In this document: positions 3,389 through 27,792 of the stretch, one piece after another | How positions within the stretch are numbered: position 1 is the stretch's first letter | Layout of the letters: each line of letters starts with the position of its first letter | Source of the DNA: a virus | Reading direction: 5' to 3' (one strand) | Length of the DNA: 53,402 nucleotides | IMG/VR virus record: IMGVR_UViG_3300035659_000019 | Location: 1-53,402 of that record | Position numbers and translations under genes: made by a program | The notes under the pieces: model-generated | Databases searched by the model: none | What the model was told of the DNA's origin: nothing | What the model saw: the letters and a program-made list of their open reading frames with translations, nothing else

Positions 3389-3417
3389 ATTATAGAACAG
3401 ATTAAAAAAGAAGGCAC
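3389..3417 (-). promoter_or_regulatory. Candidate late leftward promoter
   Basis: On the minus strand a TATAAT (3394-3389) lies about 60 bases upstream of the terS start, behind a T-rich stretch. No good -35 hexamer is seen at 16-18 bp, so an activator or another sigma factor would be needed. The site sits in the divergent gap between late and early genes, where a late promoter is expected. Confidence 0.35.
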
Positions 3418-3487
3418 GTGGTCAATTCTGCATCGTCTCGGACTAACTGGGGTGCGGGCCCGGATCCTACTTTTGCAAGTTGCCCCC

Positions 3488-3516
3488 TAGGAATTTTAGA
3501 AGAAATAAATTATAAT
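3488..3516 (+). promoter_or_regulatory. Candidate rightward promoter for the HTH gene at 3611
   Basis: TATAAT at 3511-3516 in an AT-rich stretch (3490-3530) stands out from the GC-balanced surroundings. The -35 region is poor (TAGGAA at 17 bp). A leader of about 90 nt follows. Supported only by the -10 match and its position. Confidence 0.35.
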
Positions 3517-3610
3517 TGTAGTACGTCAAAAGTTGAACGAGGCATGCGACGAGCCGATTTAGGCCTTGGCACACGCCCAAGTGTTTCAGCTATTCTGAAA
3601 GGAGCCGTAT

Positions 3611-4186
3611 ATGATGGACATAAATGAAGTAGCAAGGATGATAGAAGCAGGTCTTACAGTGGAAGCGATCGCTGAGGAGCTAGGGTGCTCAACGAGTTCG
3701 GTGTACAAGATAATGCGTGCTGTGCAACCTAACAGACGGAAAGGGAGGCCGTCCTCGGGGGACGTGCTTACTGACGTAGACCGCAGTGAGATCGTTGGCG
3801 AGTACAGATCAGGAGAGATCCCCGTTGGAGAGATCGTCCGTTCTTGGAAGATTACGTACGCTGTATTCTATAAGACTCTGCGAGATGGTGGCGTGTCGTT
3901 AGGACGTCCTAAGACGCCGGTGAAAGTAGCGAGAGAGGAACAGGCTGTCCAGATGTATATCGATGGAGCACCGCTCTGGGAGATCGTCGAGGAGACCGGA
4001 GTTCCACAACCAGTACTACACAAGATGCTACATATCCGTAAGGTACCGTTCCGTCATGGAAGCGCGCCAAAGTTTGTAGTGGACGGTGCGCCGATAGAAC
4101 CGGAGGACGAGCTACACGAAGGTGAGGGCGCTGAGCCTAGTCTTGGAGAAGATGGGACCTTCCAAGGAGACCCAGAGCCTCTTTAG
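3611..4186 (+). CDS. Protein with three helix-turn-helix modules and an acidic tail
   Basis: Probable DNA-binding regulator. Three homeodomain/resolvase-type HTH units follow one another: about residues 5-36 (ending SSVYKIMRA), 59-94 (ending VFYKTLRDGG) and 108-140 (ending VLHKMLHIRKV). The linkers contain KGRP and LGRP, reminiscent of AT-hooks. The last 30 residues are rich in Asp/Glu/Pro. ATG 3611 is preferred over ATG 3614 because AAAGGAG lies six bases upstream. It is the first rightward gene, opposite the packaging genes, so it could switch early and late transcription. No recombinase domain is seen, so it is not a complete resolvase. 191 residues. Confidence 0.75.
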   Translation: MMDINEVARMIEAGLTVEAIAEELGCSTSSVYKIMRAVQPNRRKGRPSSGDVLTDVDRSEIVGEYRSGEIPVGEIVRSWKITYAVFYKTLRDGGVSLGRPKTPVKVAREEQAVQMYIDGAPLWEIVEETGVPQPVLHKMLHIRKVPFRHGSAPKFVVDGAPIEPEDELHEGEGAEPSLGEDGTFQGDPEPL

Positions 4187-4274
4187 GACCCCGGCGTTTA
4201 CCCGGCTCGATATCGTTTCCGCTCCGCGATCAAAACTGTTACAAAAGTAACGTTCAAACCAGGACATTTGACAT

Positions 4275-4303
4275 TTGACTTGGAGTTAGAATTCATGTAC
4301 AAT
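4275..4303 (+). promoter_or_regulatory. Strong sigma70-type promoter
   Basis: TTGACT (4275-4280), 17 bases, then TACAAT (4298-4303). It is followed by an 11-A tract (4316-4326) and a roughly 350-nt untranslated stretch, so it probably drives the structured RNA at 4423-4517 and the zinc-ribbon gene at 4663. A second TTGACA lies at 4268-4273. Confidence 0.8.
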
Positions 4304-4422
4304 AAAGCTGTAAGCAAAAAAAAAAACAACTTTCACAACAAACAAACATATATATTGTACTTTAATAACTAAATACTCTACTTCATTTTATAAATTTTCT
4401 CAAACATCTAAATTTATAAAAT
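4304..4422 (+). other. AT-rich non-coding leader
   Basis: Part of a roughly 475-nt gap (4187-4662) with no convincing gene. This section is far more AT-rich than the genome and holds A and T tracts, so it may be bent or easily melted DNA. An iteron-like GTTTACCCG lies at 4196-4204, just after the upstream gene. Confidence 0.5.
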
Positions 4423-4517
4423 ATCTTGAAGCTAAAAGCTGTGACGACTTCTCAGCTAGTAACAACTAGCTTAGAACATCGCGAAAGCTGAGTCGAAAGA
4501 CTGCGATTCTTCAAGAT
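4423..4517 (+). ncRNA. Candidate structured non-coding RNA (~95 nt)
   Basis: A 9-bp closing helix, ATCTTGAAG (4423-4431) with CTTCAAGAT (4509-4517), encloses two hairpins. One is AGCTAG-TAACAA-CTAGCT (4454-4471), which extends outward with one mismatch. The other is AGTC-GAAA-GACT (4491-4502) with a GNRA tetraloop, stacked under ATCGC/GCGAT (4478-4482/4503-4507). CTCAGC (4451-4456) could alternatively pair with GCTGAG (4487-4492). It lies about 120 nt downstream of a strong promoter and contains no plausible gene. I do not recognise the family; it is not a tRNA. Confidence 0.5.
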
Positions 4518-4662
4518 TATGAGATGAGTACTAACGACGTGACTCAACACAAGTCGAACTATAATATAGGTCGTATGCAAAACGAACACGTCGTAGAGTT
4601 TAGTAACTTTCTATCTAATCATCAAATCATCAAATCGACATCTATCTATAGGAGAGAACAAA

Positions 4663-4935
4663 ATGACTACAAAACGTTATACATCAAAATCACACAACTT
4701 CTTCGATAACGACAAAAACATAACACAATATCATCATCCACGTAATCGACAACTTCCACCACACATCGTCTACAAACTAGAGCGAGAGTCAACAGATGGT
4801 GGCACAGTAATATGTGGCATATGTCACGAGAGATTCACAGTAACAGCTTGTGTCTGGTCAAGAAGAAGCTGGACTGAAGAACCACAATACTTTTGTAAGT
4901 ATTGCGTCAAGTTTCACAAGCTTACAAGAGTGTGA
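4663..4935 (+). CDS. Small zinc-ribbon protein
   Basis: 90 residues with a basic, Asn/His-rich N-terminus and a zinc-ribbon: CGIC at about 52-55 and CKYC about 26 residues on. A clear AGGAGA site lies seven bases upstream of the ATG. It sits in the AT-rich island behind the promoter at 4275 and is more AT-rich than the genes around it, which fits recent acquisition. Function unknown; small zinc proteins in phage early regions often bind host proteins or nucleic acid (inference). Confidence 0.7.
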   Translation: MTTKRYTSKSHNFFDNDKNITQYHHPRNRQLPPHIVYKLERESTDGGTVICGICHERFTVTACVWSRRSWTEEPQYFCKYCVKFHKLTRV

Positions 4936-4944
4936 GTAATGTGA

Positions 4945-5083
4945 CACACTCAGCTCTGATAAGCTTACAATCTGAGCTGTCCGCTGAAGTCGAGTGAGAG
5001 ACTAAACGTGCTAGTCAATACTAGAGTGACGTCTGCACTTGCTTCCAGCAGCTCAGTTGTCAAGCTTGTCAGAGCTGAGTGTG
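4945..5083 (+). repeat. Long inverted repeat forming one 139-nt hairpin
   Basis: The outer arms 4945-4966 and 5062-5083 pair over 22 bp with a single G-T. Pairing continues inward through ACAA/TTGT and CTGAGCTG/CAGCTCAG (4967-4979/5049-5060) with one bulged base on each side. Shorter helices follow (AGTG/CACT, AGAC/GTCT), and the tip is CTAGT-CAAT-ACTAG (5011-5024). The whole element could fold as one rod. It ends 40 bases before the HTH gene at 5123, so it may be a regulatory leader, a free small RNA or a MITE-like element. Confidence 0.75.
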
Positions 5084-5122
5084 GCCCACCTAAAACCACA
5101 CCAACACCTTAGGAGGTGTACG

Positions 5123-5581
5123 ATGCCTAGTAACATTGATCCCAAGTTAGCCTATACCATCAAGCAGGCTGCTTTAGCCTGCAGCCTTGACCCAATGTGG
5201 GTCAGACGTATGGTACAGGAGTCCAAGTTGGATGGCTGCTACCAGGAGAACGTACCTGGCACGACCATCAAACGATGGATGATTCCAGGAGCTTCTCTGA
5301 TCAAGCACGCAGCCAATGCTAAGCAGAGCAAGCGAACTGACGGAGCCACTAAGTTCACGATGTATGCTGATCGTGCGATGGCTGCTAAGTTGGAAGAGCT
5401 TGCCAAAGCAAATGGGTTGGTTGTAACCATCCAGAGAGCTAACACTCCTGAGCAGATTGCTAAGCGATATGCTCACCAGAAAGCTCAGCGAGCTCTTGCC
5501 AAAGCGAATGCTACCAAAGCTTCTGCAGCTAGCAAGCAGCGAGCGTTAGCAGCACTTCGAGGTACTGTCAGCAAGAAGTAA
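5123..5581 (+). CDS. Excisionase-type HTH protein with Lys/Ala-rich tail (paralogue A)
   Basis: 152-residue probable DNA-binding protein. The start is the ATG preceded by AGGAGGTG; an upstream in-frame ATG at 5039 lacks a ribosome site and lies inside the hairpin. Residues about 10-40 read as a MerR/excisionase winged-helix unit (YTIKQAALACSLDPMWVRRM). A middle unit starts KFTMYADRAM, and the last 45 residues are Lys/Ala/Arg-rich with histone-H1-like composition. The same architecture recurs at 9481 and 16688. Each copy stands alone, flanked by structured non-coding DNA. It could be an autoregulator, a nucleoid-type protein or a replication/partition factor. Confidence 0.75.
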   Translation: MPSNIDPKLAYTIKQAALACSLDPMWVRRMVQESKLDGCYQENVPGTTIKRWMIPGASLIKHAANAKQSKRTDGATKFTMYADRAMAAKLEELAKANGLVVTIQRANTPEQIAKRYAHQKAQRALAKANATKASAASKQRALAALRGTVSKK

Positions 5582-5621
5582 CCCAAAGCGCTGAAGCGCG
5601 CACGACCAAATTGAATACCCA

Positions 5622-5687
5622 GAGCATGCAGCCGGCACCTGCATGCTCCTGGTGAGTCGCAAAACTCCACCTCCACGCGGTGCGACT
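5622..5687 (+). other. Two intergenic hairpins
   Basis: GAGCATGCAG / CTGCATGCTC (5622-5631/5639-5648) is a perfect 10-bp stem with a 7-nt loop. AGTCGCA / TGCGACT (5655-5661/5681-5687) forms a second stem. Neither is followed by a T-run, so classic intrinsic termination is unlikely; processing or translational control is possible. A GCGCT/AGCGC mini-palindrome lies just upstream at about 5588. Confidence 0.55.
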
Positions 5688-5727
5688 TGGACAATGCTAA
5701 CGGAGAATTGAAGGAAGGAGAACTAAA

Positions 5728-5919
5728 ATGCCAGAACTACCGTTCGACCTAAACATGATTCGATTCTTAGCTCAGCGAATACACGATCATCTAGACCAAA
5801 TAAGCAAGGTGATAGAGATTGATGATGAGCAATTCGGTGAGCTCAACCACTTTGTGAGTTGGATCGTTGACCACAATCTGGAATACCTAATCGAGAAAGG
5901 AGGCAAAGCCAATGACTGA
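5728..5919 (+). CDS. Small acidic protein of unknown function
   Basis: 63 residues, largely helical and rich in Asp, Glu and Ile, with no recognisable motif. AAGGAGAAC lies upstream of the ATG at good spacing. The last codons overlap the start of the small membrane protein at 5912, which suggests co-translation. Confidence 0.6.
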   Translation: MPELPFDLNMIRFLAQRIHDHLDQISKVIEIDDEQFGELNHFVSWIVDHNLEYLIEKGGKAND

Positions 5920-6085
5920 CAAATATCAATACATCAAGGCAGGCGCCTGGCGCGCACATCAGAATGGTGTGCGTGAGTCACACACAGTGCGCCGCGCCGC
6001 GGCAAGCATTGCATTCTGGATGCTTGCAGTCGGCGCAGCCAGCTGCTTCGTGGCGATCGTGGTTCTTGCGATCGTCGTCCGGTAA
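5912..6085 (+). CDS. Small single-pass membrane protein
   Basis: 57 residues. The N-terminal half is polar and basic; the C-terminal half is a hydrophobic segment (about residues 32-56, ending VAIVVLAIVVR). The start overlaps the preceding gene by 8 nt and AAAGGAGG lies upstream. The type of small membrane protein seen in phage accessory regions; role unknown. Confidence 0.6.
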   Translation: MTDKYQYIKAGAWRAHQNGVRESHTVRRAAASIAFWMLAVGAASCFVAIVVLAIVVR

Positions 6086-6145
6086 CATAGAGCCCCCGGC
6101 CCGGGGCCCCCAGTGCCCCGACCCACAGGACCCCCGCCCCCCGGA

Positions 6146-6187
6146 GCGGGTGTCTGCAATCTGCGAATATCGTGACCGGGGACACTA
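6146..6187 (+). repeat. Duplicated intergenic element, copy 1
   Basis: 42 bases beginning GCGGGTGTCTGC and ending GGACACTA match 8873-8914 at 34 positions without gaps. Both copies keep GTGTC near the left end and GACAC near the right, so each can form a hairpin. It lies just upstream of the SprT-like gene, after a very GC-rich stretch (6088-6145). A shared regulatory or RNA element is likely. Confidence 0.6.
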
Positions 6188-6225
6188 GCATGCTGCGTCA
6201 CATCGCAGCGGAAGGAGAGCTTATC

Positions 6226-6735
6226 ATGTACACAGAGAGAACAACCGGCGGCGAGCCGGTGGACGTCGGACCGCTGTACGCGGAGGCGCTGCGGGCCTGG
6301 GGCCCCTCAGCCCTGCCGCCGGCGGAGATGATCCGCGTGACCATCGAGCCGCAGATGACCCGCAACTTCGAGCGGGCCTACCCCAAGGCGTTCCACCGTC
6401 ACACGGGCCAGAAGGTTAGCCGCGACTACTACGCGATCACCCTCAGCGGTCCATGGTTCTGCGCTATCCAGGACGTCTGCGGAGAGCAGGTGCTACTGGA
6501 GCAGTGGCGCGACACGGTACTACACGAGCTTGCGCACATCAGCATTTACCACACGCGCCCGGGGTCAGGAATTCACCACGGATACGAGTGGCAGCGTCTC
6601 ATGCAGAAGGTGGGGCTACCTACCTGCGCACGAGCGTTCTACCCTTGGTCATACAAGGTAGCGCTACCTGGTACGAAGGTAACCTGGGCTCAGATAGCGA
6701 GTTACAAAGAAGACGAGCACGGAGGCGACTCATGA
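6226..6735 (+). CDS. SprT-like zinc metallopeptidase
   Basis: 169 residues. The start is the ATG after AAGGAGAG; an in-frame ATG 54 nt upstream lacks such a site. The active-site helix VLHELAHISIYH holds HExxH (H100, E101, H104), followed by a third candidate ligand in HHGYEW (117-122), the SprT/Spartan pattern. The family includes peptidases that clear DNA-protein crosslinks, but phage members are uncharacterised. No zinc-ribbon follows the catalytic domain. It sits in the small-gene accessory region, so a role against host DNA-bound proteins is possible (inference). Confidence 0.75.
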   Translation: MYTERTTGGEPVDVGPLYAEALRAWGPSALPPAEMIRVTIEPQMTRNFERAYPKAFHRHTGQKVSRDYYAITLSGPWFCAIQDVCGEQVLLEQWRDTVLHELAHISIYHTRPGSGIHHGYEWQRLMQKVGLPTCARAFYPWSYKVALPGTKVTWAQIASYKEDEHGGDS

Positions 6736-6784
6736 CGGCAGAGAACCGTCAGGGTACCGCTCATGTAATAATCATAACAAACGG

Positions 6785-6825
6785 CACGGGTAAAAATTAT
6801 TATAATAATATATAATATATATAAT
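6785..6825 (+). promoter_or_regulatory. AT-rich promoter-like region with an inverted iteron motif
   Basis: The reverse complement of 6785-6796 reads TTTTTACCCGTG, matching the array unit at 8949-9287. It is followed at once by three TATAAT hexamers (6801, 6811, 6820). No clear -35 is seen. This is a plausible regulated promoter for the gene at 6863. Confidence 0.45.
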
Positions 6826-6862
6826 GAAAACCGTAACCCCACTACCACAAGAAAGGAGCACC

Positions 6863-7030
6863 ATGGACGAGAAACTGAAAGCATTGCTAGTAGCCTTCCT
6901 AGAGAAGGTAGTCTCTGGCACCGAGTCGATCATCGAGCTTCGGGTATACAAGGACGCTGACCCCGTATACAAGATGATCGAGCTGTGTCAGATGGACGAC
7001 GGCTCGTACGAGATCGAAGACGAGCAGTAG
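6863..7030 (+). CDS. Small acidic protein of unknown function
   Basis: 55 residues starting at ATG 6863, which follows AAAGGAGCACC; an upstream in-frame ATG lacks such a site. The N-terminal half is an amphipathic helix (KLKALLVAFLEKVV); the C-terminus is acidic (SYEIEDEQ). No family recognised. Confidence 0.6.
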   Translation: MDEKLKALLVAFLEKVVSGTESIIELRVYKDADPVYKMIELCQMDDGSYEIEDEQ

Positions 7031-7040
7031 GTTCGACGCC

Positions 7041-7068
7041 CTGTCCTGGAGCGAGGACTCCAGGACAG
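7041..7068 (+). other. Perfect 11-bp intergenic hairpin
   Basis: CTGTCCTGGAG (7041-7051) and CTCCAGGACAG (7058-7068) pair perfectly around a 6-nt loop. A second short stem (CCGGC/GCCGG) follows before the next ribosome site. No T-run, so it may be an mRNA processing or stability element. Confidence 0.6.
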
Positions 7069-7102
7069 CCGCCGGCTCTACTGCCGGAGAGAGGAGTACC
7101 AT

Positions 7103-7873
7103 ATGCACCCTGAGACAAAGCACGACATGCTAGCCGCACTACTGTATTACCACGACTACGTAGCGAACGGCCGGCGTCACCTTACGACCTTGGGTCGCGA
7201 CGGGTACTACCACCCCATTGAGGACCTTGAGTGCCCGCTGTGCGAGAACGCCCGGTGGATCTCGTCGTACGGATCACATATGCGGAGCAACGAGCACATC
7301 GTTGCGAAGTTCCGCGTCTCACGACGACGGCTCCAAAAGGCCCAAGAGTACCTGACCATCCTAAGCCACGGTCAGGGTCTTACGCCAGACGTAGCATATA
7401 AGCGTCTGTCGTTCGGCGAAGGAGATCTGTCAGGGCTACTCGTATCACCACACAAGTCTGACGAGCCCTGGCAACCTGGTAAGGTGTACGAGGCGACCTG
7501 TGTCAGTTCCGACATGACGCAGGCCGCACATACGCCCCCAGGAGAGGACTGCACGTGCGGGATCTACGCATTCTGGGACCCAGTACAAGCCTTCGAATAT
7601 CCAGGAGGCGACGTAACGGTCCGCCTGAAGATTGGCGGACTAATAGAGGACTGCGAGGAAGGCTGCAGAGCCCAATACGCGGTCATTACAGGCCTAGTCT
7701 ATCTCGAGCACGCACGGGATAGCTTGGTCGTAGACACCGCGAGCATCGAGCTCTCGGCACGATACGGAGTACCGGCCATACCGGCAGTCCGTGAGAACCA
7801 GGGAGAGAAGCTCCGTACGATGTTGGAGCCGCTATTCTCCCAGTGGGATATGGAGGACAAGAGCCATGAGTAA
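7103..7873 (+). CDS. Unknown protein with a C2H2-like zinc motif
   Basis: 256 residues. A Cys/His cluster at about 44-65 (ECPLCENAR... SHMRSNEH) resembles a C2H2 finger. The middle has CTCGIYAFWD (about 151-160) and further cysteines (DCEEGC). GAGAGGAG precedes the ATG. The C-terminus overlaps the HTH gene at 7866 by 8 nt, so the two are probably co-translated. No enzyme family recognised; a nucleic-acid-binding role is possible. Confidence 0.65.
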   Translation: MHPETKHDMLAALLYYHDYVANGRRHLTTLGRDGYYHPIEDLECPLCENARWISSYGSHMRSNEHIVAKFRVSRRRLQKAQEYLTILSHGQGLTPDVAYKRLSFGEGDLSGLLVSPHKSDEPWQPGKVYEATCVSSDMTQAAHTPPGEDCTCGIYAFWDPVQAFEYPGGDVTVRLKIGGLIEDCEEGCRAQYAVITGLVYLEHARDSLVVDTASIELSARYGVPAIPAVRENQGEKLRTMLEPLFSQWDMEDKSHE

Positions 7874-8156
7874 GTCCCTGATCAGCGACGAGCCTCGTGT
7901 ATCGTATAAAGAGGCTGCCGACATCCTGGGTGTAGATCATCATTACGTCCGGATACTGACGGCTCGCGGCGTCTTCGAGATCTTAGAGGAGCGCCGCATT
8001 AGTCCCCACGTGATCAAGGTGTTCATCAGCCTTGAGAGCGTGGAGCGTTACCAGGAAGCCCACCGTACGCGTACGCGCCATATGGTAAAGCTGACTGAAG
8101 ACGAGTGGTCGCAGTTCCGGGCCATGTTCGGCAATGACAAAATCCGAGGAGGGTAG
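7866..8156 (+). CDS. Excisionase/MerR-type HTH protein
   Basis: 96 residues. Residues about 11-60 follow the excisionase HTH pattern: VSYKEAADILGVDHHYVRIL, then a wing-like segment ending KVFISLESVERY. It resembles the N-terminal domain of the paralogues at 5123, 9481 and 16688 but lacks their Lys/Ala tail. ATG 7866 overlaps the previous gene and GGAGG lies nine bases upstream. Probably a transcription regulator or DNA architectural protein. Confidence 0.7.
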   Translation: MSKSLISDEPRVSYKEAADILGVDHHYVRILTARGVFEILEERRISPHVIKVFISLESVERYQEAHRTRTRHMVKLTEDEWSQFRAMFGNDKIRGG

Positions 8157-8157
8157 T

Positions 8158-8349
8158 ATGACTTACATCGGCAAGAAACGTCGCACGACGAAGCTTCCCA
8201 AGCCGGAGGCCGTTCCGCTCGCGCCGCCTATCCAGGTACCTGACTGGCCTACGCCAGAACGGACACCGGAAGAGGCGCCGCTCGTAGCACCCAACTGGCC
8301 CACTAAGGCACCGGTAACGGTACCCCTTACGCCCGGGGGCAGCTGGTAG
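8158..8349 (+). CDS. Small proline-rich protein
   Basis: 63 residues with a basic N-terminus (GKKRRTTKLPK) and then a Pro-rich low-complexity stretch with repeated VPDWPTP/APNWPT motifs. GAGGAGGG lies five bases upstream of ATG 8158, one base after the previous stop. The composition suggests an extended, unfolded protein. Function unknown. Confidence 0.55.
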   Translation: MTYIGKKRRTTKLPKPEAVPLAPPIQVPDWPTPERTPEEAPLVAPNWPTKAPVTVPLTPGGSW

Positions 8350-8388
8350 CTAGCCGGGGGCTAGGGGGGCCCCCAGAAAGGACCACAT

Positions 8389-8814
8389 ATGTACCGCAGT
8401 AACGGTTATGTCGACCCCAACCGTACGATACCAGGCAAGACGTGGTATCCAAACGGCGCGGCGACACTTCACCACCCTACGTACGAGGTACTGCCTGGAC
8501 ATTGGAACAACATCCGGCAGAACCGACGGTTCCTCATGCTGCTCTACGAGGCCGTCGGCGACGAACCATTCACCAATAAGCAGGCGTACGAGATCTACGC
8601 CAAGCACTGCTGGCAGGGCCGCTTCCGGATCGCAGAGTTCCGAGATCGCGCGCATGCAGAGCTGGACGCCGACTTAGCAGGGATGTACGACAAGGAGATA
8701 GGGTACGGCGACTGCTGGATGCAGATGAACTGCAGGAACCAGCTGTGCACGGGAGCCAAGCGGGGCACCCTGATCCGCTTGGAGCCCGGCCTCTACAGGT
8801 TCCGCCCGTACTAG
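8389..8814 (+). CDS. Unknown protein, possible winged-helix
   Basis: 141 residues with AAAGGA before the ATG. The middle (FLMLLYEAVGDEPFTNKQAY) and the end (LIRLEPGLYRFRPY) look like helices followed by a beta-wing, a layout also seen in the protein at 13395. It is the last gene before a strong terminator. No confident family. Confidence 0.55.
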   Translation: MYRSNGYVDPNRTIPGKTWYPNGAATLHHPTYEVLPGHWNNIRQNRRFLMLLYEAVGDEPFTNKQAYEIYAKHCWQGRFRIAEFRDRAHAELDADLAGMYDKEIGYGDCWMQMNCRNQLCTGAKRGTLIRLEPGLYRFRPY

Positions 8815-8817
8815 TGT

Positions 8818-8862
8818 AACCCACCGACCCTCGGGGTCGCAAGGCCCTCCGGGTTCTTTTTT
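8818..8862 (+). terminator. Rho-independent terminator
   Basis: AACCC (8818-8822) pairs with GGGTT (8851-8855) around an inner hairpin GACCC-TCG-GGGTC (8826-8838), followed by C and six Ts (8857-8862). It ends the 3.6-8.8 kb gene run and separates it from the repeat array. Confidence 0.8.
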
Positions 8863-8872
8863 GCCCAACGGC

Positions 8873-8914
8873 GCGGGTGTCTGCCATCTGCCAATTTCCT
8901 GGCCATGGACACGA
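8873..8914 (+). repeat. Duplicated intergenic element, copy 2
   Basis: Matches 6146-6187 at 34 of 42 bases, including the GTGTC...GACAC arms. Here it lies between the terminator and the repeat array. An inverted CGGGTAA (8924-8930) follows at once. Confidence 0.6.
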
Positions 8915-8948
8915 ACTTTCTAGCGGGTAACAAACTTTGGGGAAAAAC

Positions 8949-9287
8949 ACCCGTGTAGTATGGATTCAACTCCTCGTTACCCGTGTAAGGACCGCTCCTA
9001 GGCGTTTACCCGCGTAAAAATCCTCTCACGGTCTTTACCCGTGTAGAAGGAATTCAACACCATGCTCCCCGTGTAAAGTCCGGCCCCTACCTTTTACCCG
9101 TGTACCACAGTTAATCAAACGCGCTCCCCGTGTAAAGACCAGCGCGGCACCACTACCCGTGTAGTAGGATGTTCAAAGACGGCTACCTACGTAGCTAAGG
9201 AGCAAATCACCGCTACCCGTGTAAAAACACCCAAACACGCAGACCCGCGTAACTCTCACCGCTACCCGTGGCACAGTTACCCGCCAG
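8949..9287 (+). repeat. Iteron-like array: 11 units every 28-30 bp, consensus TTACCCGTGTAA
   Basis: The core CCCGTGTA (or CCCGCGTA) starts at 8950, 8980, 9009, 9038, 9068, 9097, 9127, 9156, 9186 (degenerate, CCTACGTA), 9216 and 9244; shorter forms (CCCGTG, CCCGCC) lie at 9265 and 9280. The spacing is 30, 29, 29, 30, 29, 30, 29, 30, 30, 28. The unit is an imperfect palindrome (TTAC/GTAA). The intervening bases vary, though units at 8950, 9038 and 9156 share GTAG-A/T-AGGA-TTCAA. This roughly 340-bp stretch has no gene. It looks like a multi-site protein-binding array: replication origin, centromere-like site or operator cluster. Confidence 0.85.
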
Positions 9288-9389
9288 AGGCGCACCCGCC
9301 ATGCTAACTCTCTACGGACCCCGGCACTTCTAGAGAACCGTCCTGACCATACCATGACGTATCATCAAAAAATTCATGACAAACGCCAC

Positions 9390-9418
9390 TTGACATAAAA
9401 TTACTAATATTCTATAAT
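9390..9418 (+). promoter_or_regulatory. Perfect-consensus sigma70 promoter
   Basis: TTGACA (9390-9395), 17 bases, TATAAT (9413-9418). It drives the HTH gene at 9481 with a roughly 55-nt leader, and the repeat array lies just upstream. Confidence 0.9.
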
Positions 9419-9430
9419 ATATATAACGAT

Positions 9431-9450
9431 TGAACAGCGTATCATGTTCA
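9431..9450 (+). promoter_or_regulatory. Candidate operator, inverted repeat TGAACA-N8-TGTTCA
   Basis: A 20-bp dyad lies 12 bases downstream of the -10, about where transcription begins. It fits a repressor site, perhaps for the product of the gene it precedes. Confidence 0.45.
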
Positions 9451-9480
9451 TAGACTACTACAGGAAAGGAGGATACCCCA

Positions 9481-9897
9481 ATGGCTAACGACAAGAACAC
9501 CGCCCCTAAGACTTCGTATTCCATCGAGGAAGCTGCAAAGTTCCTCGGAATGCGCAGCCAGTACGTCCGGACGCTAATCCGGACCGGCAAGCTGCCCAGC
9601 ACGAAGGTACAGTTAAGCGAGAACATGTGGCGCCACGAGATCGCACTCGCAGCGCTCGAGGCTCGCAAGGCCGCAGGAAGCACTCGCGGCAAGCCGGCGA
9701 ACGGCAACAAGTACTTCATCCACGCAACTCCAGTCGTACTTGCTCGGCTTCAGGCGATCGTCGCGAAGGAAGGCCTAAGCATTACCTTCGCCCCCGCATA
9801 CGACAAGGCCAAGGCGAAAGCCCAGTACCTGAAGCAGAAGGCCAAGAAAGCCGCCGCGAAGAACGGCACGCTCAAAGCCGTCGTCGAGAAGAAGTAG
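9481..9897 (+). CDS. Excisionase-type HTH protein with Lys/Ala-rich tail (paralogue B)
   Basis: 138 residues, preceded by AAAGGAGG. The N-terminal HTH (about 12-60) reads YSIEEAAKFLGMRSQYVRTL, with a wing ending in a helix rich in Ala/Arg. The middle unit starts KYFIHATPVVLARLQ. The C-terminal 40 residues are almost only Lys, Ala and Gln, as in histone-like tails. It is transcribed from a perfect promoter immediately beside the repeat array, so it is the first candidate for the protein that binds those repeats. Paralogues at 5123 and 16688. Confidence 0.75.
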   Translation: MANDKNTAPKTSYSIEEAAKFLGMRSQYVRTLIRTGKLPSTKVQLSENMWRHEIALAALEARKAAGSTRGKPANGNKYFIHATPVVLARLQAIVAKEGLSITFAPAYDKAKAKAQYLKQKAKKAAAKNGTLKAVVEKK

Positions 9898-9926
9898 TGA
9901 CCCCGGCCCCCAAAGCTCCACATAAC

Positions 9927-9948
9927 GAGCCGTCCGTAAGGACGGCTC
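9927..9948 (+). promoter_or_regulatory. Hairpin with GTAA tetraloop beside the ribosome site
   Basis: GAGCCGTCC and GGACGGCTC form a perfect 9-bp stem with a GNRA loop (GTAA, 9936-9939). It ends one base before the AGGAGG that serves the gene at 9962. No T-run. It could control translation or block 3'-to-5' decay of the upstream message. Confidence 0.6.
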
Positions 9949-9961
9949 TAGGAGGTTGCCT

Positions 9962-10318
9962 ATGCTCAGTTTCGAGATCGACTTTGCCTGGGACATAGAC
10001 GCCACGCCTTACCAAGATCACGACTTCATGCACCTCGGCGGCGAATGGAACTCCAGCGGATTGCTACCAGATCGAGCCACTGGACAGCGGTTACGCGACG
10101 TACAGCTGCTTTTGCACACGCCCCTGCAAACCCGTAATGCTGTCAGATGGATGGAGGCCTTGGATCCGCCGCTCGAGTATGTCAACGTGCATTGGGCTCC
10201 GCCTGACTGGATCGTAAGTATCCAGGAATGGGCGGATACCCATGGCTTAGCTGCGTTGAAATGGTGGATCGATGATATCGGAGATGATCTAGTGGAGTGG
10301 CTATGTGCCTACGCATGA
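9962..10318 (+). CDS. Unknown protein, Trp/Asp-rich
   Basis: 118 residues starting at ATG 9962; AGGAGG lies six bases upstream. It opens with FEIDFAWDID and is rich in Trp (eight) and acidic residues (WWIDDIGDDLVEW). This superficially resembles a HAD-type DxD start, but no other motif supports that. Last gene before a roughly 470-bp non-coding gap. Confidence 0.6.
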   Translation: MLSFEIDFAWDIDATPYQDHDFMHLGGEWNSSGLLPDRATGQRLRDVQLLLHTPLQTRNAVRWMEALDPPLEYVNVHWAPPDWIVSIQEWADTHGLAALKWWIDDIGDDLVEWLCAYA

Positions 10319-10397
10319 GATTACGAAAGCGGCGTCCCCGGGTAAAGCGTATCAGGTTAGACTTATTCACGGTGACGATCCGTAAAAGAAAATAAAA

Positions 10398-10434
10398 CGG
10401 GCCCAGTGGGCATACTAACGTATGCCCACACCCG
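10398..10434 (+). other. Strong hairpin in the 10319-10789 gap
   Basis: GTGGGCATAC / GTATGCCCAC (10406-10415/10420-10429) is a perfect 10-bp stem with a TAAC loop, extended by CGGG/CCCG. No T-run follows. A second inverted repeat, ACAATAAT/ATTATTGT, lies at 10445-10452/10464-10471. An inverted iteron core (CGGGTAAA, 10339-10346) lies before it. Confidence 0.55.
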
Positions 10435-10530
10435 GGGATAACGAACAATAATTTTCCTTTGTCATTATTGTCTAAGATCCAGAGGATGCTTATATATAAA
10501 TACTAATAGAAACGTATAAACTCACATATA

Positions 10531-10560
10531 TTGAGAGTCTGAACGGTTCTGCTGTATAAT
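10531..10560 (+). promoter_or_regulatory. Sigma70-type promoter
   Basis: TTGAGA (10531-10536), 18 bases including the dyad GAACGGTTC, then TATAAT (10555-10560). A very AT-rich stretch with an (ATT)n tract (about 10602-10620) follows, and then a roughly 150-nt mixed leader with the palindrome CCGTTAACGG (10680-10689). Confidence 0.65.
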
Positions 10561-10718
10561 GATTTAGAATACATAGAATATATAGAATAATACTAGATAA
10601 AATATTATTATTATTATTATATATTATTAATGGGACCCTCAGCCATTCCAACTCCCTGTTTGTCTCTTACCCACTGAGCCCGTTAACGGCAACACGTCCC
10701 GGTAACGCTCACAGTAGG

Positions 10719-10764
10719 TTTGGAACAAATGCCACGTTCCAAATAACAAATAATGGCGTATAAT
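10719..10764 (+). promoter_or_regulatory. Candidate operator plus -10 upstream of the 10.8-16.6 kb operon
   Basis: The dyad TTTGGAAC (10719-10726) / GTTCCAAA (10736-10743) overlaps the -35 position of a TATAAT at 10759-10764. The -35 itself is weak. The gene starts at 10790 with AAAGGAGG in between. This looks like a promoter governed by a dimeric regulator. Confidence 0.5.
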
Positions 10765-10789
10765 AGAATCATATAGGAAAGGAGGAACC

Positions 10790-11314
10790 ATGGATATAAA
10801 TTTGGAAGACGAACGAATCACCTCGCTCGAAGAGAGCGAACGCATCGAAGTGATCGATGTGGCGCTCAACGCATGGGCAATGGGTACTGCTCTGGATGTC
10901 GCCGACTCTCTTCAAGGCGACGAAAAGGCACGAGAGTTCATCCTCCAGCACATCGAGATGATCGACTACGTCGCTGGGCAGGCCGCACATCTACTCGAGG
11001 TGCACTTCACACCGCCGCCTGTAGACGCTCTCACGGTTGCAACCGCACTTACGGATCCCGACGTCTTTGCAGACCATCCTAACGGACTCGTAGACATGAT
11101 CGGCAGCCACCCAGCGTACATTGAAGCCTGTGTTGGTCGTATCGCAGCCGTACTGGGTACCGGCGTTGCATTGATCTACGAAGATGTAGGCTACCGGCAC
11201 CTCGACGAAGAGACCACCAAAAAGGTCCGCGACATCGACGAGCAACTATATCTCGATGTACTACAGGCTCTACATTACCAAGAAAGGAAGGAGTACCATG
11301 CCACCCAAGGGTAG
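10790..11314 (+). CDS. Unknown acidic helical protein
   Basis: 174 residues, strongly acidic, predicted mostly helical. First gene of a tightly packed run of small genes to 16566. AAAGGAGGAACC precedes the ATG. The C-terminal 17 nt overlap the next gene and contain its ribosome site. No family recognised. Confidence 0.65.
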   Translation: MDINLEDERITSLEESERIEVIDVALNAWAMGTALDVADSLQGDEKAREFILQHIEMIDYVAGQAAHLLEVHFTPPPVDALTVATALTDPDVFADHPNGLVDMIGSHPAYIEACVGRIAAVLGTGVALIYEDVGYRHLDEETTKKVRDIDEQLYLDVLQALHYQERKEYHATQG

Positions 11315-11621: not shown

Positions 11622-11898
11622 CACACTAACCAAAGCCCAGGAGTGGGAAGAGGCTCACTCATTTGAGGAGTGGCAAGCCTTACCCGTTACCAGAGACGAC
11701 CTGGATCAATGCATCTGCGATGCAATCCACGCCGCTCTGGCGATCCCTGGGGTATGGGATGCAGTCATGTCACAGGCCCACAAGGAAGACTTTACCACGC
11801 CTGAGGACGACGACCCGTACTCTATTCCCTTCTACTATATTTGGGAACATCTAACAACAGAGGAGGTATCAAGTGACAAGCAAACTAGTACGTCATAA
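11605..11898 (+). CDS. Unknown acidic protein
   Basis: 97 residues, acidic, with EEWQALPVTRDDLDQ and an acidic C-terminal half. Starts inside the end of the previous gene (17-nt overlap), and its own end overlaps the GTG start of the next. No motif recognised. Confidence 0.6.
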   Translation: MSSTSDTLTKAQEWEEAHSFEEWQALPVTRDDLDQCICDAIHAALAIPGVWDAVMSQAHKEDFTTPEDDDPYSIPFYYIWEHLTTEEVSSDKQTSTS

Positions 11899-12349
11899 GG
11901 TCAGCGTCTCGGTCTACAAAGTAGGTGCGGATCAACCAATCCTGCACGTAGAGCTCGAAGACTACGACCCCATTCGAACGGATGGCGAAGTTTATCGAAC
12001 CGCCACCCCAGTCAATGGCCATTACATCTTTGTTGGGGTCGAACCGCTCCCCGATCAACCGCGTATAAGCCTTACCCGAGCGCAAGCAAAGACCGCGCTC
12101 GAAGGGTGCTACGCTCAGATCAGCGAGTACGACACGATGCCCAACGACCCCAAGAACGCAAAGTACCGTACCTTGGCGCAGACACTCGAAGAGTTCCTAC
12201 AGACCAGCCGCACTCCACCTAAAAAGCGGAAGCCGGCTGACATCGAGATTCACTTCACGCCATCGGTTAAATCGAACTACGGTCCTGATCCTGACGTTAG
12301 CGACGTAATTCGCCAACACGAGGAGAGCGGCGATGGCTTCCCTCCCTAA
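11873..12349 (+). CDS. Unknown protein (GTG start)
   Basis: 158 residues. GTG 11873 is chosen because AGGAGGT lies five bases upstream and no in-frame ATG fits. A beta-rich N-terminal half is followed by a basic linker (PPKKRKP, about 111-117). C-terminus overlaps the next gene by 17 nt. Function unknown. Confidence 0.65.
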   Translation: MTSKLVRHKVSVSVYKVGADQPILHVELEDYDPIRTDGEVYRTATPVNGHYIFVGVEPLPDQPRISLTRAQAKTALEGCYAQISEYDTMPNDPKNAKYRTLAQTLEEFLQTSRTPPKKRKPADIEIHFTPSVKSNYGPDPDVSDVIRQHEESGDGFPP

Positions 12350-12737
12350 CCTTAAGTCCATCGAAGGGGCCCTCAACGACTTCGTCGACAAACTAACAGC
12401 CGGCAATGAGGCTGCCCTCGTCGAGATGCGGAGGAAACGCGAAATGCCTATCCAACTTGACCCCACAGGAGATCCCTACGAGCGCCTGACTGAGTTCCTA
12501 GAAGCCGCGATGACTTATGCGCAACGCGGCGAGTGGCCTCTAGTTCAGGAGATGCTAACCAACGCCAACGAGGCGTTATCATATATCGTGCCAATCGGCG
12601 CACCATTTCGTCATATATGGACGACTACACCCGCCGATAGCTTTGACCTTTGGGTATGTGCGCGATGCGGCAAACATTCGAACGACCCAGTTCCAAACGC
12701 AAAGGAGGTTTGCAATGACAGTGCAAGCAGTGGTTAG
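12333..12737 (+). CDS. Unknown protein with C-terminal CxxC
   Basis: 134 residues: helical N-terminus, then CARCGKHS at about 109-116 and a further Cys near the end, possibly one half of a zinc-ribbon. GAGGAG lies upstream of the ATG. The end overlaps the next gene by 23 nt, and the next ribosome site (AAAGGAGG) lies in its last codons. Confidence 0.6.
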   Translation: MASLPNLKSIEGALNDFVDKLTAGNEAALVEMRRKREMPIQLDPTGDPYERLTEFLEAAMTYAQRGEWPLVQEMLTNANEALSYIVPIGAPFRHIWTTTPADSFDLWVCARCGKHSNDPVPNAKEVCNDSASSG

Positions 12738-13122
12738 AATAGCCAAGGATCCGCGAGGCGGCAGTACCTGGCTCGTAGACCTTGGATTCGTCCATCCTAG
12801 TCTGGGATGGACTTCGATTCACCAAGTGAATCACATCCCCAGCGTAGCCGTAAGCGTTGTCGAGAAGTACATTCAAGCAGATGGCTACAAAATGAGCGAC
12901 GACCTCGAGACGGAGATTTCGTATCTCCGCATGCATCTAGCTGCACGCATCGATGACGCGGAACAGCAACTAAACCAGCATGACTACGAAGAGGCCGCCA
13001 ACTGTCTCAACGTGGCAAGCGGCCATGCAAGCGCAATCGCAGGTCTCTGGCCTAAGTATCTAGCCTCGCTCACAGATGTTATAAACGCGCGAGAGGAGTT
13101 ACGTCATGCCTTCCCCAAGTAA
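12715..13122 (+). CDS. Unknown protein
   Basis: 135 residues from the ATG after AAAGGAGG. N-terminal beta segment (VQAVVRIAKDP), C-terminal helices (DDAEQQLNQHDYEEAANCL). No recognised family. Overlaps the next gene by 17 nt. Confidence 0.6.
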   Translation: MTVQAVVRIAKDPRGGSTWLVDLGFVHPSLGWTSIHQVNHIPSVAVSVVEKYIQADGYKMSDDLETEISYLRMHLAARIDDAEQQLNQHDYEEAANCLNVASGHASAIAGLWPKYLASLTDVINAREELRHAFPK

Positions 13123-13420
13123 AGTTCAGCATACCGCAATCGACGTCGAGCTAGGCGAGAAACCTGCTCGAGCCTCGGTCAGCGAGTTCCAGGGTAAGAA
13201 CTACATATCCCTGCGTTATACGTACGAGGACCGTAACACGCATGAGACCAAGTTCGGTCAGAACGGAATTAACATGCAGGCCGGTACTGACGTTGCTACG
13301 CTCATTGAGGTTGGCGTAGAAGCGATCGAGTCCCTCATCAACGTACTCAACGTCTCAGCAGGCACCCACTACCATCTGGAAATGGAGGATACCAATGCAA
13401 CTGACACCAATAGCATCTAA
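13106..13420 (+). CDS. Unknown protein, weakly PC4-like
   Basis: 104 residues. The segment from about 28 to 56 (FQGKNYISLRYTYED ... FGQNGINM) has the strand pattern of PC4-type single-stranded DNA-binding coactivators, which phages and bacteria sometimes encode; the match is weak. Ends inside the next gene. Confidence 0.55.
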   Translation: MPSPSKVQHTAIDVELGEKPARASVSEFQGKNYISLRYTYEDRNTHETKFGQNGINMQAGTDVATLIEVGVEAIESLINVLNVSAGTHYHLEMEDTNATDTNSI

Positions 13421-13758: not shown

Positions 13759-14388
13759 ATGGACCAAATTGATTCGTTCACGGGCGACAACTTCTTCCTG
13801 TCGAACTTCTACCCAGCATGTATCAAAGTAGAAGGTATAGCTTTCCCGACGGTAGAGCACGCATACCAGTACGCTAAGACTCTGATCCAGAATGAGCAGA
13901 TTGCAATTCTGACCGCACCTACACCGGGAGCAGCAAAGCGACTAGGTAAGACGGTTACGCTCCGAGCAGACTGGGAGATGATCAAGGAGGAGGTTATGCG
14001 CAAATGCCTCAGCCAAAAGTTCGCTATACCCGAACTCGGTACGGCTCTCCTCGCTACGGGAACCGCGGAACTTATCGAAGGGAACTCGTGGGGAGATACG
14101 TACTGGGGCGTGTGCAATCACGCAGGCCAAAATCGACTCGGCGAACTGCTAATGCAAGAGCGCAGCAAGGCTAGGATGGACATCGACCCAGACATCCTCA
14201 AAGAGTACTACCTTCGTCGTAACGAGCTAGACTACTTCTTCGAATACCTCGACGCCAACGGCTACGACGTCGAAGCATTCATGGAGAAGAACGAGGCCCG
14301 GCTGGACAAACTCGCCAACCAGCTCGATCTGGCTATCGCAGATCTGCTGGACAACCTAATCGAAGCAGATGCGGAGGGTATCATATGA
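13759..14388 (+). CDS. NADAR (YbiA/DUF1768) family protein
   Basis: 209 residues. Signature segments: FLSNFYP (13-19), EGIAFPTVEHAYQYAK (25-40), and ELIEGNSWGDTYWG followed by GQNRLGELLM (about 104-132). NADAR proteins act in NAD/ADP-ribose metabolism, and some are reported to remove ADP-ribose from guanine in DNA. The first 140 residues are the domain; a 65-residue charged helical extension follows. Good ribosome site (AAAAGGAGG). In a phage, a role in undoing ADP-ribosylation-based defence or restoring NAD is plausible but inferred. Confidence 0.85.
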   Translation: MDQIDSFTGDNFFLSNFYPACIKVEGIAFPTVEHAYQYAKTLIQNEQIAILTAPTPGAAKRLGKTVTLRADWEMIKEEVMRKCLSQKFAIPELGTALLATGTAELIEGNSWGDTYWGVCNHAGQNRLGELLMQERSKARMDIDPDILKEYYLRRNELDYFFEYLDANGYDVEAFMEKNEARLDKLANQLDLAIADLLDNLIEADAEGII

Positions 14389-16687: not shown

Positions 16688-17110
16688 ATGGTTCTAGATA
16701 CATCTAAGTTCCAGTTCCCGGACGTTATGAACATTCGCTTAGCGAGTGTCTACCTTGACGTCAGCGAACAGCGGATCCGCGCCCTACTTCGGGAGGGCCG
16801 CATCAAGGCGGACAAAGACGAGGCCGGTGCTTGGATCATCAGCAAAGAGGCCCTTGAGGCCTACAAAGCGGAGCACGCGCAAGGACCCAAGCGCACTTCC
16901 GGCGTCAGTGGCAAAGGCAAGGCCTACGTCGTACGCGTACCGTTCCAGAAGATCCAGGCTGTCAAGGATTTCCTTGCCACTCAGGACATCGAGCTGGAGC
17001 AGCGGTACAACTACGACAAGATGAAAGTCTACCAGCAAAAACGGAAGGCTCGTCTTGCCGCAGAGAAGAAAGAGAAAGCCAAAGCCGCCAAGGCTGAAGC
17101 CGCCAGCTAG
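16688..17110 (+). CDS. Excisionase-type HTH protein with Lys/Ala-rich tail (paralogue C)
   Basis: 140 residues; AAAAGGAG precedes the ATG. HTH at about 13-58 (NIRLASVYLDVSEQRIRALL, wing, then SKEALEAYKAEH). Middle unit starts KAYVVRVPFQKIQAV. The C-terminal 35 residues are Lys/Ala/Glu-rich and coiled. Same three-part architecture as the proteins at 5123 and 9481, again as a lone gene between non-coding regions. Likely DNA-binding; exact role unknown. Confidence 0.75.
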   Translation: MVLDTSKFQFPDVMNIRLASVYLDVSEQRIRALLREGRIKADKDEAGAWIISKEALEAYKAEHAQGPKRTSGVSGKGKAYVVRVPFQKIQAVKDFLATQDIELEQRYNYDKMKVYQQKRKARLAAEKKEKAKAAKAEAAS

Positions 17111-25745: not shown

Positions 25746-26059
25746 TGGATGGAAGAGTAACGTTGCGGTCAGCCGTAAAGAGCCAGCTCCAGACCTTGAA
25801 ATCGGAGACGGCTTTCTATTACGGCGAGGTTGTTGAAATAAAGGGCGTGAAGTTTACCATAACGCGTATGAACAACTCTACGCTATGTGTACACCCCATC
25901 AATAAGTTCCGGCATTTCGCTGGCATTCTTTTAGTAGAGGAGAGTGAACATGTTACAACAGGTGTTGCAGATTCAGAAGGAACTGGCGCCCCCGAGAGCA
26001 GTAGTACTCCTGTCGGGCGGGATGGACAGCACGACGTGCCTGTCCCAAGCAATCCGTGA
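25745..26059 (+). CDS. Unknown protein overlapping queC
   Basis: 104 residues; ATG overlaps the primase stop (TAATG). The first 68 residues look like a normal small beta-rich protein (YYGEVVEIKGVKFTITRM). The last 36 run out of frame into queC and are low-complexity Ser/Gly/Pro. The 110-nt overlap is unusual here, so the true protein may once have ended near 25950. Confidence 0.6.
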   Translation: MDGRVTLRSAVKSQLQTLKSETAFYYGEVVEIKGVKFTITRMNNSTLCVHPINKFRHFAGILLVEESEHVTTGVADSEGTGAPESSSTPVGRDGQHDVPVPSNP

Positions 26060-26723
26060 CGGGAACGACGAGATCTTAGCGGTTACGTGTTTCTATGGAA
26101 GCAAACACGCCGCTGCAGAGGTTGGCGCTTCACGTCAGATCGTGGAGTGGTATAACAGTCGTGGCATAGCGAAGGTCGACCAACGAATCATCGAGCTACC
26201 TAATATCTTTAGAGGGTCGGGCTCGGCACTTATGAACGAGGTCAATATGCCACAGATGTCCTACGCAGACATACACGAGTCCTTTGGTCCTAGTCCAACG
26301 GTCGTACCGTTTCGCAATGCCAACCTTATCTCGGTAGCGACAACGCTCGCTATCGGCTTCAAGGCCACATCCGTATACATCGCTGCACACGCAGATGATG
26401 CACACAACTGGGCCTATCCTGATTGCACACCAGAGTTCCTGGGTGCGATGGCTGCTGCCGTGTACATAGGTTCGTACCATGCAGTTACCCTACGGTTTCC
26501 GTTCGTCTGGATGACCAAGGCCAACATCGTTGCGTGCGCGGAGATGGCGCCCTACGCTCCTCTCGGGCTCACCTGGTCTTGTTACGAAGACGGGCTACAA
26601 CAATGTGGTACTTGCCCAACGTGTATCGAACGTATCCACGCTTTTAGGGTGAACGGTTGGAAGGATCGACGTACTTACGAAGCTCCAGTCGATTGGATGA
26701 ATCTCCCGGAGTTTCCATATTAG
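25950..26723 (+). CDS. queC: QueC, 7-cyano-7-deazaguanine (preQ0) synthase
   Basis: Makes preQ0 from CDG, ATP and ammonia. 257 residues. PP-loop SGGMDST (22-28); PFRNANLISVA (120-130); zinc site of four Cys: C211, C219, C222, C225 (CYEDGLQQCGTCPTC). ATG 25950 is favoured by GAGGAG seven bases upstream; a GTG at 25944 is less likely. No fused amidotransferase domain. First gene of the deazaguanine cluster. Confidence 0.95.
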   Translation: MLQQVLQIQKELAPPRAVVLLSGGMDSTTCLSQAIRDGNDEILAVTCFYGSKHAAAEVGASRQIVEWYNSRGIAKVDQRIIELPNIFRGSGSALMNEVNMPQMSYADIHESFGPSPTVVPFRNANLISVATTLAIGFKATSVYIAAHADDAHNWAYPDCTPEFLGAMAAAVYIGSYHAVTLRFPFVWMTKANIVACAEMAPYAPLGLTWSCYEDGLQQCGTCPTCIERIHAFRVNGWKDRRTYEAPVDWMNLPEFPY

Positions 26724-26731
26724 GAGGATGT

Positions 26732-26977
26732 ATGAACTTCTTCAAAGACTCAACTACCAAAGACCTGCAAGAGATACTGACAGGTGTGGCCGCTCACGGC
26801 ACGCGACAGTTGGTCCAGAGAGTTTGGGCTGTAATTACTCTGACGGCCTGGTTTTCTCTGATGGCCTGCTTTTGGCTTCACATGTTTGCTACGGACGTAA
26901 AGGTAGTAGGTCCTTCCATCTTCTTCGCCGTTGTATTCATTAGTTGCGTAATCATCATACAAGGAGGTCCGAGATGA
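26732..26977 (+). CDS. Small two-span membrane protein
   Basis: 81 residues with two hydrophobic segments (VWAVITLTAWFSLMACFWLHMF; IFFAVVFISCVIIIQ) after a charged N-terminus. AGGAGGATGT precedes the ATG. It sits between queC and queD; two spans recall class II holins, but its place suggests another, unknown role. Confidence 0.6.
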   Translation: MNFFKDSTTKDLQEILTGVAAHGTRQLVQRVWAVITLTAWFSLMACFWLHMFATDVKVVGPSIFFAVVFISCVIIIQGGPR

Positions 26978-27399
26978 CCGTTACTATATCGCGTGAGTAC
27001 TCGTTCAGCGCAGCACACCGCCTTGAGGGGCATCCCCAGTGCGGTCGTATGCATGGCCACAACTACGTAGTCGAGGTGATCGTCGAGGCAAGCATCTTCG
27101 AGCTATCGCCGAACGGCATGATCCTAGACTATCATGACCTCGACGAGATTGTCAAGCCCATCGTTGCACTACTGGATCATCGTTACCTTGTTAGCGATGC
27201 GAATGCTCGTGCTGGCGACGTTTACTATAAGGCAGTACCTCGTGACTGCTATCTCATGGATGTCGAGCAAACTACGGCGGAGCTCATTGCGGGATGGTTC
27301 TTTGCAAAGCTTGAGGTACACTACCGGCTAAAGCATTACGGGATAGTTGTGATCATCTCAGAGACTCCAAAGAGCAAGGCCGCATATGCGGCAGACTGA
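26974..27399 (+). CDS. queD: QueD, 6-carboxytetrahydropterin synthase
   Basis: Second step of preQ0 synthesis (dihydroneopterin triphosphate to CPH4). 141 residues from the ATG after GGAGGTCC. Zinc ligands H15, H27, H29 (SAAHRL; GRMHGHNY), catalytic C23, DYHDLDEIVKP, LLDHRYL (D68, H69), and E130 in SETP. Full length for the family. Confidence 0.95.
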   Translation: MTVTISREYSFSAAHRLEGHPQCGRMHGHNYVVEVIVEASIFELSPNGMILDYHDLDEIVKPIVALLDHRYLVSDANARAGDVYYKAVPRDCYLMDVEQTTAELIAGWFFAKLEVHYRLKHYGIVVIISETPKSKAAYAAD

Positions 27400-27438
27400 T
27401 CTACGCCTAAAGGAGCTAAATAAGACAGGAGGTGAACT

Positions 27439-27792
27439 GTGAAGCAGGTCGATCTGGCCTATGCGGCAGGGTTCTTTGACGGAGAAGGGTCTATTACGAT
27501 CTCGAACAAAGGCGGTTATGTTCGAATCGAGGTAGCCGTCTCTCAAAAACTGCCTGCAGTACTCCAGTGGTGGGAGACTCACTTTGACGGCAATACATAT
27601 CACAGCGTAGTCTCCCAGTGGAAGATTCATGGCTCTAAAGGCGTCGCACTCTTAACGTTACTTCTCCCGTATCTTATCGTTAAGAATGTCGACGCTCAAG
27701 AGGCAATTCATATATGGTCGATACGAGCTGACCGCGAGCTCACGACACAACTAATCAATGAAAGGAAGGTTCGACGTGGTAAAGTTTCTTGA
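27439..27792 (+). CDS. LAGLIDADG homing endonuclease 3 (GTG start)
   Basis: 117 residues with AAGFFDGEGSIT (about 9-20). Diverged from the two copies at 21565 and 31457. GTG 27439 follows AGGAGGTG. Its last 17 nt overlap the next gene, whose ribosome site lies inside it. Free-standing, between queD and the gene at 27776. Confidence 0.82.
   Translation: MKQVDLAYAAGFFDGEGSITISNKGGYVRIEVAVSQKLPAVLQWWETHFDGNTYHSVVSQWKIHGSKGVALLTLLLPYLIVKNVDAQEAIHIWSIRADRELTTQLINERKVRRGKVS

Follow-up and report, generated by a model that had tools for sequence, protein, structure and literature searches.

We describe in a virus contig an array of eleven 12-bp palindromic cores with a period of 28-30 bp, followed directly by a promoter and a gene for an HTH_17 winged-helix protein. 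Judging from the sequence, the most likely reading, to which we give about even confidence, is that the array would be an operator cluster for a phage DNA-binding protein, serving early-gene control with autoregulation. The window, i.e. the whole stretch of DNA analyzed, is this 53,402-base contig.

Architecture of the repeat array

The array, the neighboring sites and the candidate binding proteins are located as follows:

3611-4186, + strand: gene for a tandem-HTH protein with three HTH units (from its model and matches to 2lvs), alternative candidate binder
4198-4204, + strand: single TTACCCG, about 70 bp upstream of the promoter-like 4275-4303
5123-5581, + strand: HTH_17 paralogue
6787-6793, - strand: single TTACCCG, inside the promoter-like 6774-6803
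7866-8156, + strand: short HTH_17 paralogue
8843-8855, + strand: terminator-like hairpin with a T-run after the upstream gene, in a region whose hairpin count is not above that of shuffles
8919-8931, - strand: inverted partial core at the left array edge (GTTACCCGCTAGA on the - strand), containing TTACCCG at 8924
8947-9252, + strand: array of eleven cores, a 12-bp word with the consensus YTACCCGTGTAR, period 28-30 bp
9262-9288, + strand: two off-phase partial cores at the right array edge (CTACCCGTGGCA, TTACCCGCCAGA)
9390-9418, + strand: sigma70-type promoter, TTGACA-17-TATAAT, 12/12 match
9481-9897, + strand: HTH_17 winged-helix gene directly after the array (Pfam PF12728, E=9.3e-7), with a basic C-terminal helix
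10339-10345, - strand: single TTACCCG, about 185 bp upstream of the promoter-like 10531-10560
16688-17110, + strand: HTH_17 paralogue, which groups with one gene each of G016, G025, G026, G027, G029 and G030

All eleven cores are on the + strand, with starts at 8947, 8977, 9006, 9035, 9065, 9094, 9124, 9153, 9183, 9213 and 9241, the one at 9183 being a degenerate copy (CTACCTACGTAG). The start-to-start gaps are 30, 29, 29, 30, 29, 30, 29, 30, 30 and 28 bp (mean 29.4). A match to ACCCGTGTA with at most one mismatch is present in 10 of the 11 cores; shuffled genomes displayed a mean of 5.4 such matches on one strand of the whole window and never more than two per 300 bp, which places the clustering far beyond chance. 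The regularity of the array was matched by none of 200,000 random placements. The eleven cores and their period, first noticed in a sequence-only reading of this DNA, are confirmed by these positions, shuffles and placements. The same reading carried strict phasing to 9287, which was slightly generous: the array is regular through 9252, where phasing stops, and the partial cores at 9262 and 9277 follow off phase, after 21 and 15 bp. The segments 8919-8931 and 9276-9288 form a 13-bp inverted pair (92% complementary), and the degenerate arm of both outermost elements points away from the array.

The core is an imperfect palindrome (5/6 pairs), and the spacers of 17-18 bp are almost without conservation, the information being restricted to the 12 bp of the core. 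In agreement with these poorly conserved spacers, Tandem Repeats Finder did not report the array. The stretches of units 1 and 4, 88 bp apart, are 74% alike over 68 bp, a likeness which suggests that the array probably grew by duplication, with later drift of the spacers and retention of cores and spacing. That both were kept while the spacers diverged indicates selection on core and spacing alike, a point in favor of the operator reading. No ORF of at least 60 aa was found on the + strand inside the array, in line with the initial view that it holds no gene. A search of the whole window against Rfam gave no match at the gathering threshold, and none appeared in 4180-10800 with the limit relaxed to E=0.1; a known structured RNA is therefore unlikely. 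A CRISPR array was ruled out by the unit sizes: the 12-bp core and the 17-18-bp spacer fall short of the repeats (about 21-48 bp) and the unique spacers (about 26-72 bp) that define one.

Flanking promoter and candidate binding proteins

About 100 bp separate the end of the array from the 9390-9418 promoter downstream, a distance that is far for a simple repressor and counts against the operator reading. Both this perfect sigma70 promoter and an HTH gene with a basic tail had been noted in the sequence-only reading, and both are there. The 9481 protein scores 29.5 bits against the HTH_17 profile, above the cut-off of 27, and the 5123 and 7866 proteins fall below it. Its AlphaFold2 model (pLDDT 82 overall, >90 across the winged helix) consists of two helices and a beta wing (H15-22, H26-35, E41-46, E49-55), followed by one helix and then by the long basic C-terminal helix. 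The nearest folds are Pukovnik Xis, RacA and BldC, all of them weak matches (best E=0.019), and with a profile of 17 relatives Pukovnik Xis again ranks first (E=0.026).

On direct repeats BldC assembles into head-to-tail cooperative multimers (PMC5859096), and RdfS, a protein related to BldC, forms filaments (PMC11963761). That such fold neighbors bind DNA as cooperative multimers supports the operator reading, and the likeness to BldC/Xis-type binders extends to the HTH_17 family, to repeated sites near promoters and to the 11-bp direct repeats of the relatives G005, G026 and G016. In contrast with the head-to-tail BldC repeats about one turn apart, the window core is palindromic and recurs every 29.4 bp, or 2.8 turns, which together with the weak fold matches counts against the operator reading; the 9481 protein, whose binding is predicted only, also differs in its extra helix and basic tail.

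For a second candidate, the 3611 product, the Cbp1-type CRISPR repeat binding protein 2lvs is the best PDB match both by sequence (E=8.9e-5) and by fold (E=0.018), the similarity being modest. In Cbp1 three HTHs are aligned along one CRISPR repeat, with a motif of 21 bp (PMC10883916). The 3611 protein resembles the binder of Sulfolobales CRISPR arrays in its three tandem HTH units and, modestly, in its sequence, and Cbp1 likewise binds regularly spaced repeats; unlike Cbp1, it is a phage protein with putative binding, and the window array is not CRISPR and has a 12-bp word. In a variant with 3611 replacing 9481, this protein would bind the array in a Cbp1-like manner and form a chromatin-like structure. 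Tandem-HTH proteins have three HTH units in some phages and about five to seven in others, and two three-unit phages, G000 and G003, have periods of 29 and 28 bp, while the 11-bp repeats of G005, G026 and G016 go with about five to seven units. Against this stand G025, with about seven units and no 11-bp array, and G002, G027 and G029, with three units and no comparable array, and a rule linking unit number to repeat period was rejected on these exceptions. Considering also that the conserved part of each unit, 12 bp, is short for three HTHs and that the gene is 4.8 kb away from the array, we find binding by the 3611 protein improbable. Either product could bind the array, to judge from the sequences, and adjacency favors 9481.

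The AT content climbs to 66-76% at 9350-9449, right after the array. The main rival explanation is an iteron-type replication origin, in which an HTH-protein initiator on the iterons would open the AT-rich 9350-9450. As in the iteron origins of plasmids and phages, phased direct repeats are joined by an AT-rich flank and an adjoining DNA-binding protein gene, and the phage encodes its own polymerase, primase-like protein, SSB-like protein and helicase. The cumulative GC skew reaches its minimum close to where the terminases and the tandem-HTH gene diverge; in G025, G026 and G030 this minimum is 0.9-1.7 kb away from the repeats. It coincides, however, with the switch in transcription direction, which confounds the skew as a check, and in the window it lies more than 5 kb from the array. 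Unlike iteron origins, the array has no DnaA box nearby (nor is there a genome-wide excess) and no recognized initiator gene adjacent, and no initiator of a known family was found. The AT-rich stretch is also simply the promoter, and G027 and G002 have no strong cluster at this place. We regard an origin as rather unlikely.

TTACCCG words outside the array

Outside the array TTACCCG occurs six times in the window, four of them intergenic (4198, 6787, 8924 and 10339), and all three copies of TTTACCCG are intergenic as well. With an intergenic fraction of 10.8%, from a gene list made by hand from ORFs, the bias of these words is significant at roughly p=0.001-0.002 (binomial). The additional cores initially placed at 4196, 6785, 8924 and 10339 are real sites, but they share only TTACCCG (7 bp) or slightly more with the core and never the full 12-mer. 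The three best promoter-like sites of 3400-11000 (9390, 10531 and 4275) each have the array or a TTACCCG word upstream, and a fourth, weaker one (6774-6803) contains the 6787 word. This placement is the main support for the operator reading. The 4198 word sits within an element partly conserved in relatives, possibly for other reasons, which weighs against that reading. The element comprises about 100 bp after the tandem-HTH gene and is partly conserved in four phages (window 4180-4290, L163:5110-5215, L164:5030-5125 and L109:3125-3230), with a GGCRTTT..TCGA.A..CACGTCA-like sequence and no Rfam match.

That a few TTACCCG words lie in other intergenic regions of the early genes could also be expected of stoperator-type silencing by an immunity repressor, since mycobacteriophage stoperators are likewise short sites, here possibly bound by a phage regulator. 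The window sites are, however, clustered rather than dispersed over the genome, and CCCGTGTA has no copy in the window outside the array. No lysogeny module was found, nor were Phage_integrase or Resolvase domains (tyrosine or serine recombinases) in the window and seven related records. We consider such silencing highly unlikely. The missing recombinase domains may be compatible with an extrachromosomal prophage, and a centromere-like partition site of a plasmid-like prophage has the layout of the array in its favor. In par loci a phased array usually lies upstream of the promoter of the DNA-binding protein, as it does here. No ParA was found, a scan of early proteins gave no ParM or TubZ family, and there is no sign of a lysogenic state; a partition site is equally far from probable. 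Origin, centromere and stoperator were the options put forward in the sequence-only reading. A protein-binding array by an HTH gene is supported, whereas centromere and stoperator are weak and the origin comes without a nearby DnaA box; an operator array, which was not listed, fits best.

The operator cluster would work through the HTH_17 product of the adjacent 9481 gene, most likely the putative binder of the cores. Contact between neighboring bound molecules would account for the fixed spacing, and these molecules would assemble one extended protein-DNA complex that tunes the adjacent 9390-9418 promoter, by repression or by activation, giving autoregulation. Single TTACCCG sites would let the same protein act at other early promoters.

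Repeats near HTH_17 genes in a family of related phages

A search for DNA similarity among 50,697 phage records, from which near-identical records were possibly left out, gave no close relative of the window. Relatives were found via proteins, and several are fragments; the primase or the 9481 protein alone retrieved none, and the terminase and small alignments did yield some. Relatives of the terminase, at about 50% identity, are present in IMG/VR and also in MAG contigs, mostly labeled Chloroflexota, with some Planctomycetota and others, and on these labels the host is probably a Chloroflexota bacterium. The window apparently belongs to an undescribed phage family of about 48-56 kb with a common gene order, a tandem-HTH gene and HTH_17 paralogues. 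Using the window proteins and three relative HTH proteins as queries, the long records G025, G026, G027 and G029 match 26 to 38 queries, with order largely kept; G030 joined the set via its tandem-HTH gene. The late genes share one strand, and the early strand carries the HTH_17 paralogues, helicase, exonuclease, Sak4-like protein, primase-like protein, queuosine genes and polymerase. The tandem-HTH gene is divergent from the terminases in the window (3611-4186) and nine related records (e.g. L109:3949-5052, L172:1403-2491 and L173:8201-9070).

Other features of the genome are the queuosine-type genes at 25944-30531 (QueC, QueD, QueE-like and GTP cyclohydrolase), kept in relatives, and a probable NADAR-domain protein at 13759-14388 (phrog_1017, E=4.7e-43), one early protein matching Pfam NADAR. 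The contig ends (1-150 and 53250-53402) share about 90 bp that are nearly identical, with differences, and may reflect a circularly permuted genome or a repetitive end.

Conservation of motif or spacing, set beforehand as a check, was not borne out: the 12-mer array is in none of the relatives searched, though most have other repeats near the equivalent place, and its absence counts against the operator reading. As an array the 12-mer is missing from six relatives and the L007 record, with isolated one-mismatch matches in two of the seven.

Repeat clusters were scored per record by one simple statistic, a sliding 500-bp repeat score, whose top value in the window is the array (z=32). In 6 of 11 related records the strongest cluster is close to an HTH_17 gene or occupies the corresponding site. 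In G025, G026, G005, G030 and G031 no more than about 0.4 kb separates it from an HTH_17 gene; G026 and G005 show a large margin over the next-best stretch and G031 a clear one, the margins of G025 and G030 being small. G003 is a fragment without an HTH_17 gene, and here the top score falls on a 28-bp array that lies where the contig ends, in the equivalent position following the tandem-HTH gene. The top stretch of G016 is 1.4 kb from an HTH_17 gene, with TTCTCATG-type repeats 11 bp apart at three promoter-like sequences (promoters judged by eye), and those of G027, G029, G002 and G032 are elsewhere.

Motif and period vary among the relatives (28, 11 and 9 bp; GTGAC palindromes). TTCTCAT repeats of 11 bp occur in G005, G026 and G016, three copies of GTGATCTTTGTCAC in G025, CCTTAACAA repeats in G030 (judged by eye) and GGTCTAAT repeats in G031. 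GTGAC-type palindromes are found mainly before HTH_17 genes in three relatives (G005, G025 and G026), so palindromic sites at HTH_17 promoters recur. These sites, and the repeats at promoter-like sequences in G016, favor the operator reading. The large 11-bp arrays of G005 and G026 are separate from these palindromes, and the repeats near HTH_17 genes are therefore not all of one kind. Cluster position thus recurs in most, though not all, of the relatives, while sequence and period change; among so few and related genomes this amounts to a pattern rather than a formal test.

Several observations on repeats stand apart. L109:2690-3110 and L173:7700-8170 contain hundreds of bases of 11-bp repeats (TTCTCATnnnn), whose strand with respect to the HTH_17 gene is opposite in these two related phages. 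In G030 (L189:11080-11160 and 11790-13300) the CCTTAACAA repeats precede one HTH_17 gene and ATGGAAC repeats surround the region before the next. On a 1.16-Mb Caldilineaceae contig a small terminase-like gene is preceded by 11-bp repeats (CCGCATTATCG; L160:8344-8471). A tie between an array and a second A-type HTH_17 paralogue, which fits G000, G026, G030 and G031, was set aside, the genomes being few and the records fragmentary. A scan of viral contigs for a two-copy pattern mostly picked up repeats that are in frame within collagen-like or other coding sequence; the best-looking pair, 28 bp apart in L007, overlaps ORFs in a record with no protein in common with the window, and was rejected.

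A wider and more speculative possibility, which we think improbable, is that a rapidly evolving "landing strip" of repeats has been maintained in the family near the HTH_17 genes, with lineage-specific motif and period (29, 28, 11 and 9 bp) and with co-evolving winged-helix and tandem-HTH proteins. If so, these phages would have their own equivalent of satellite-like DNA, organizing the viral chromosome or setting lineage-specific incompatibility. If the array is an operator cluster, these phages would offer protein-DNA pairs from nature whose sites have changed in spacing and sequence at a similar genome position, and would help to learn how specificity changes in winged-helix and tandem-HTH proteins. 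The array would then also be a first regulatory landmark in this group of Chloroflexota-linked phages.
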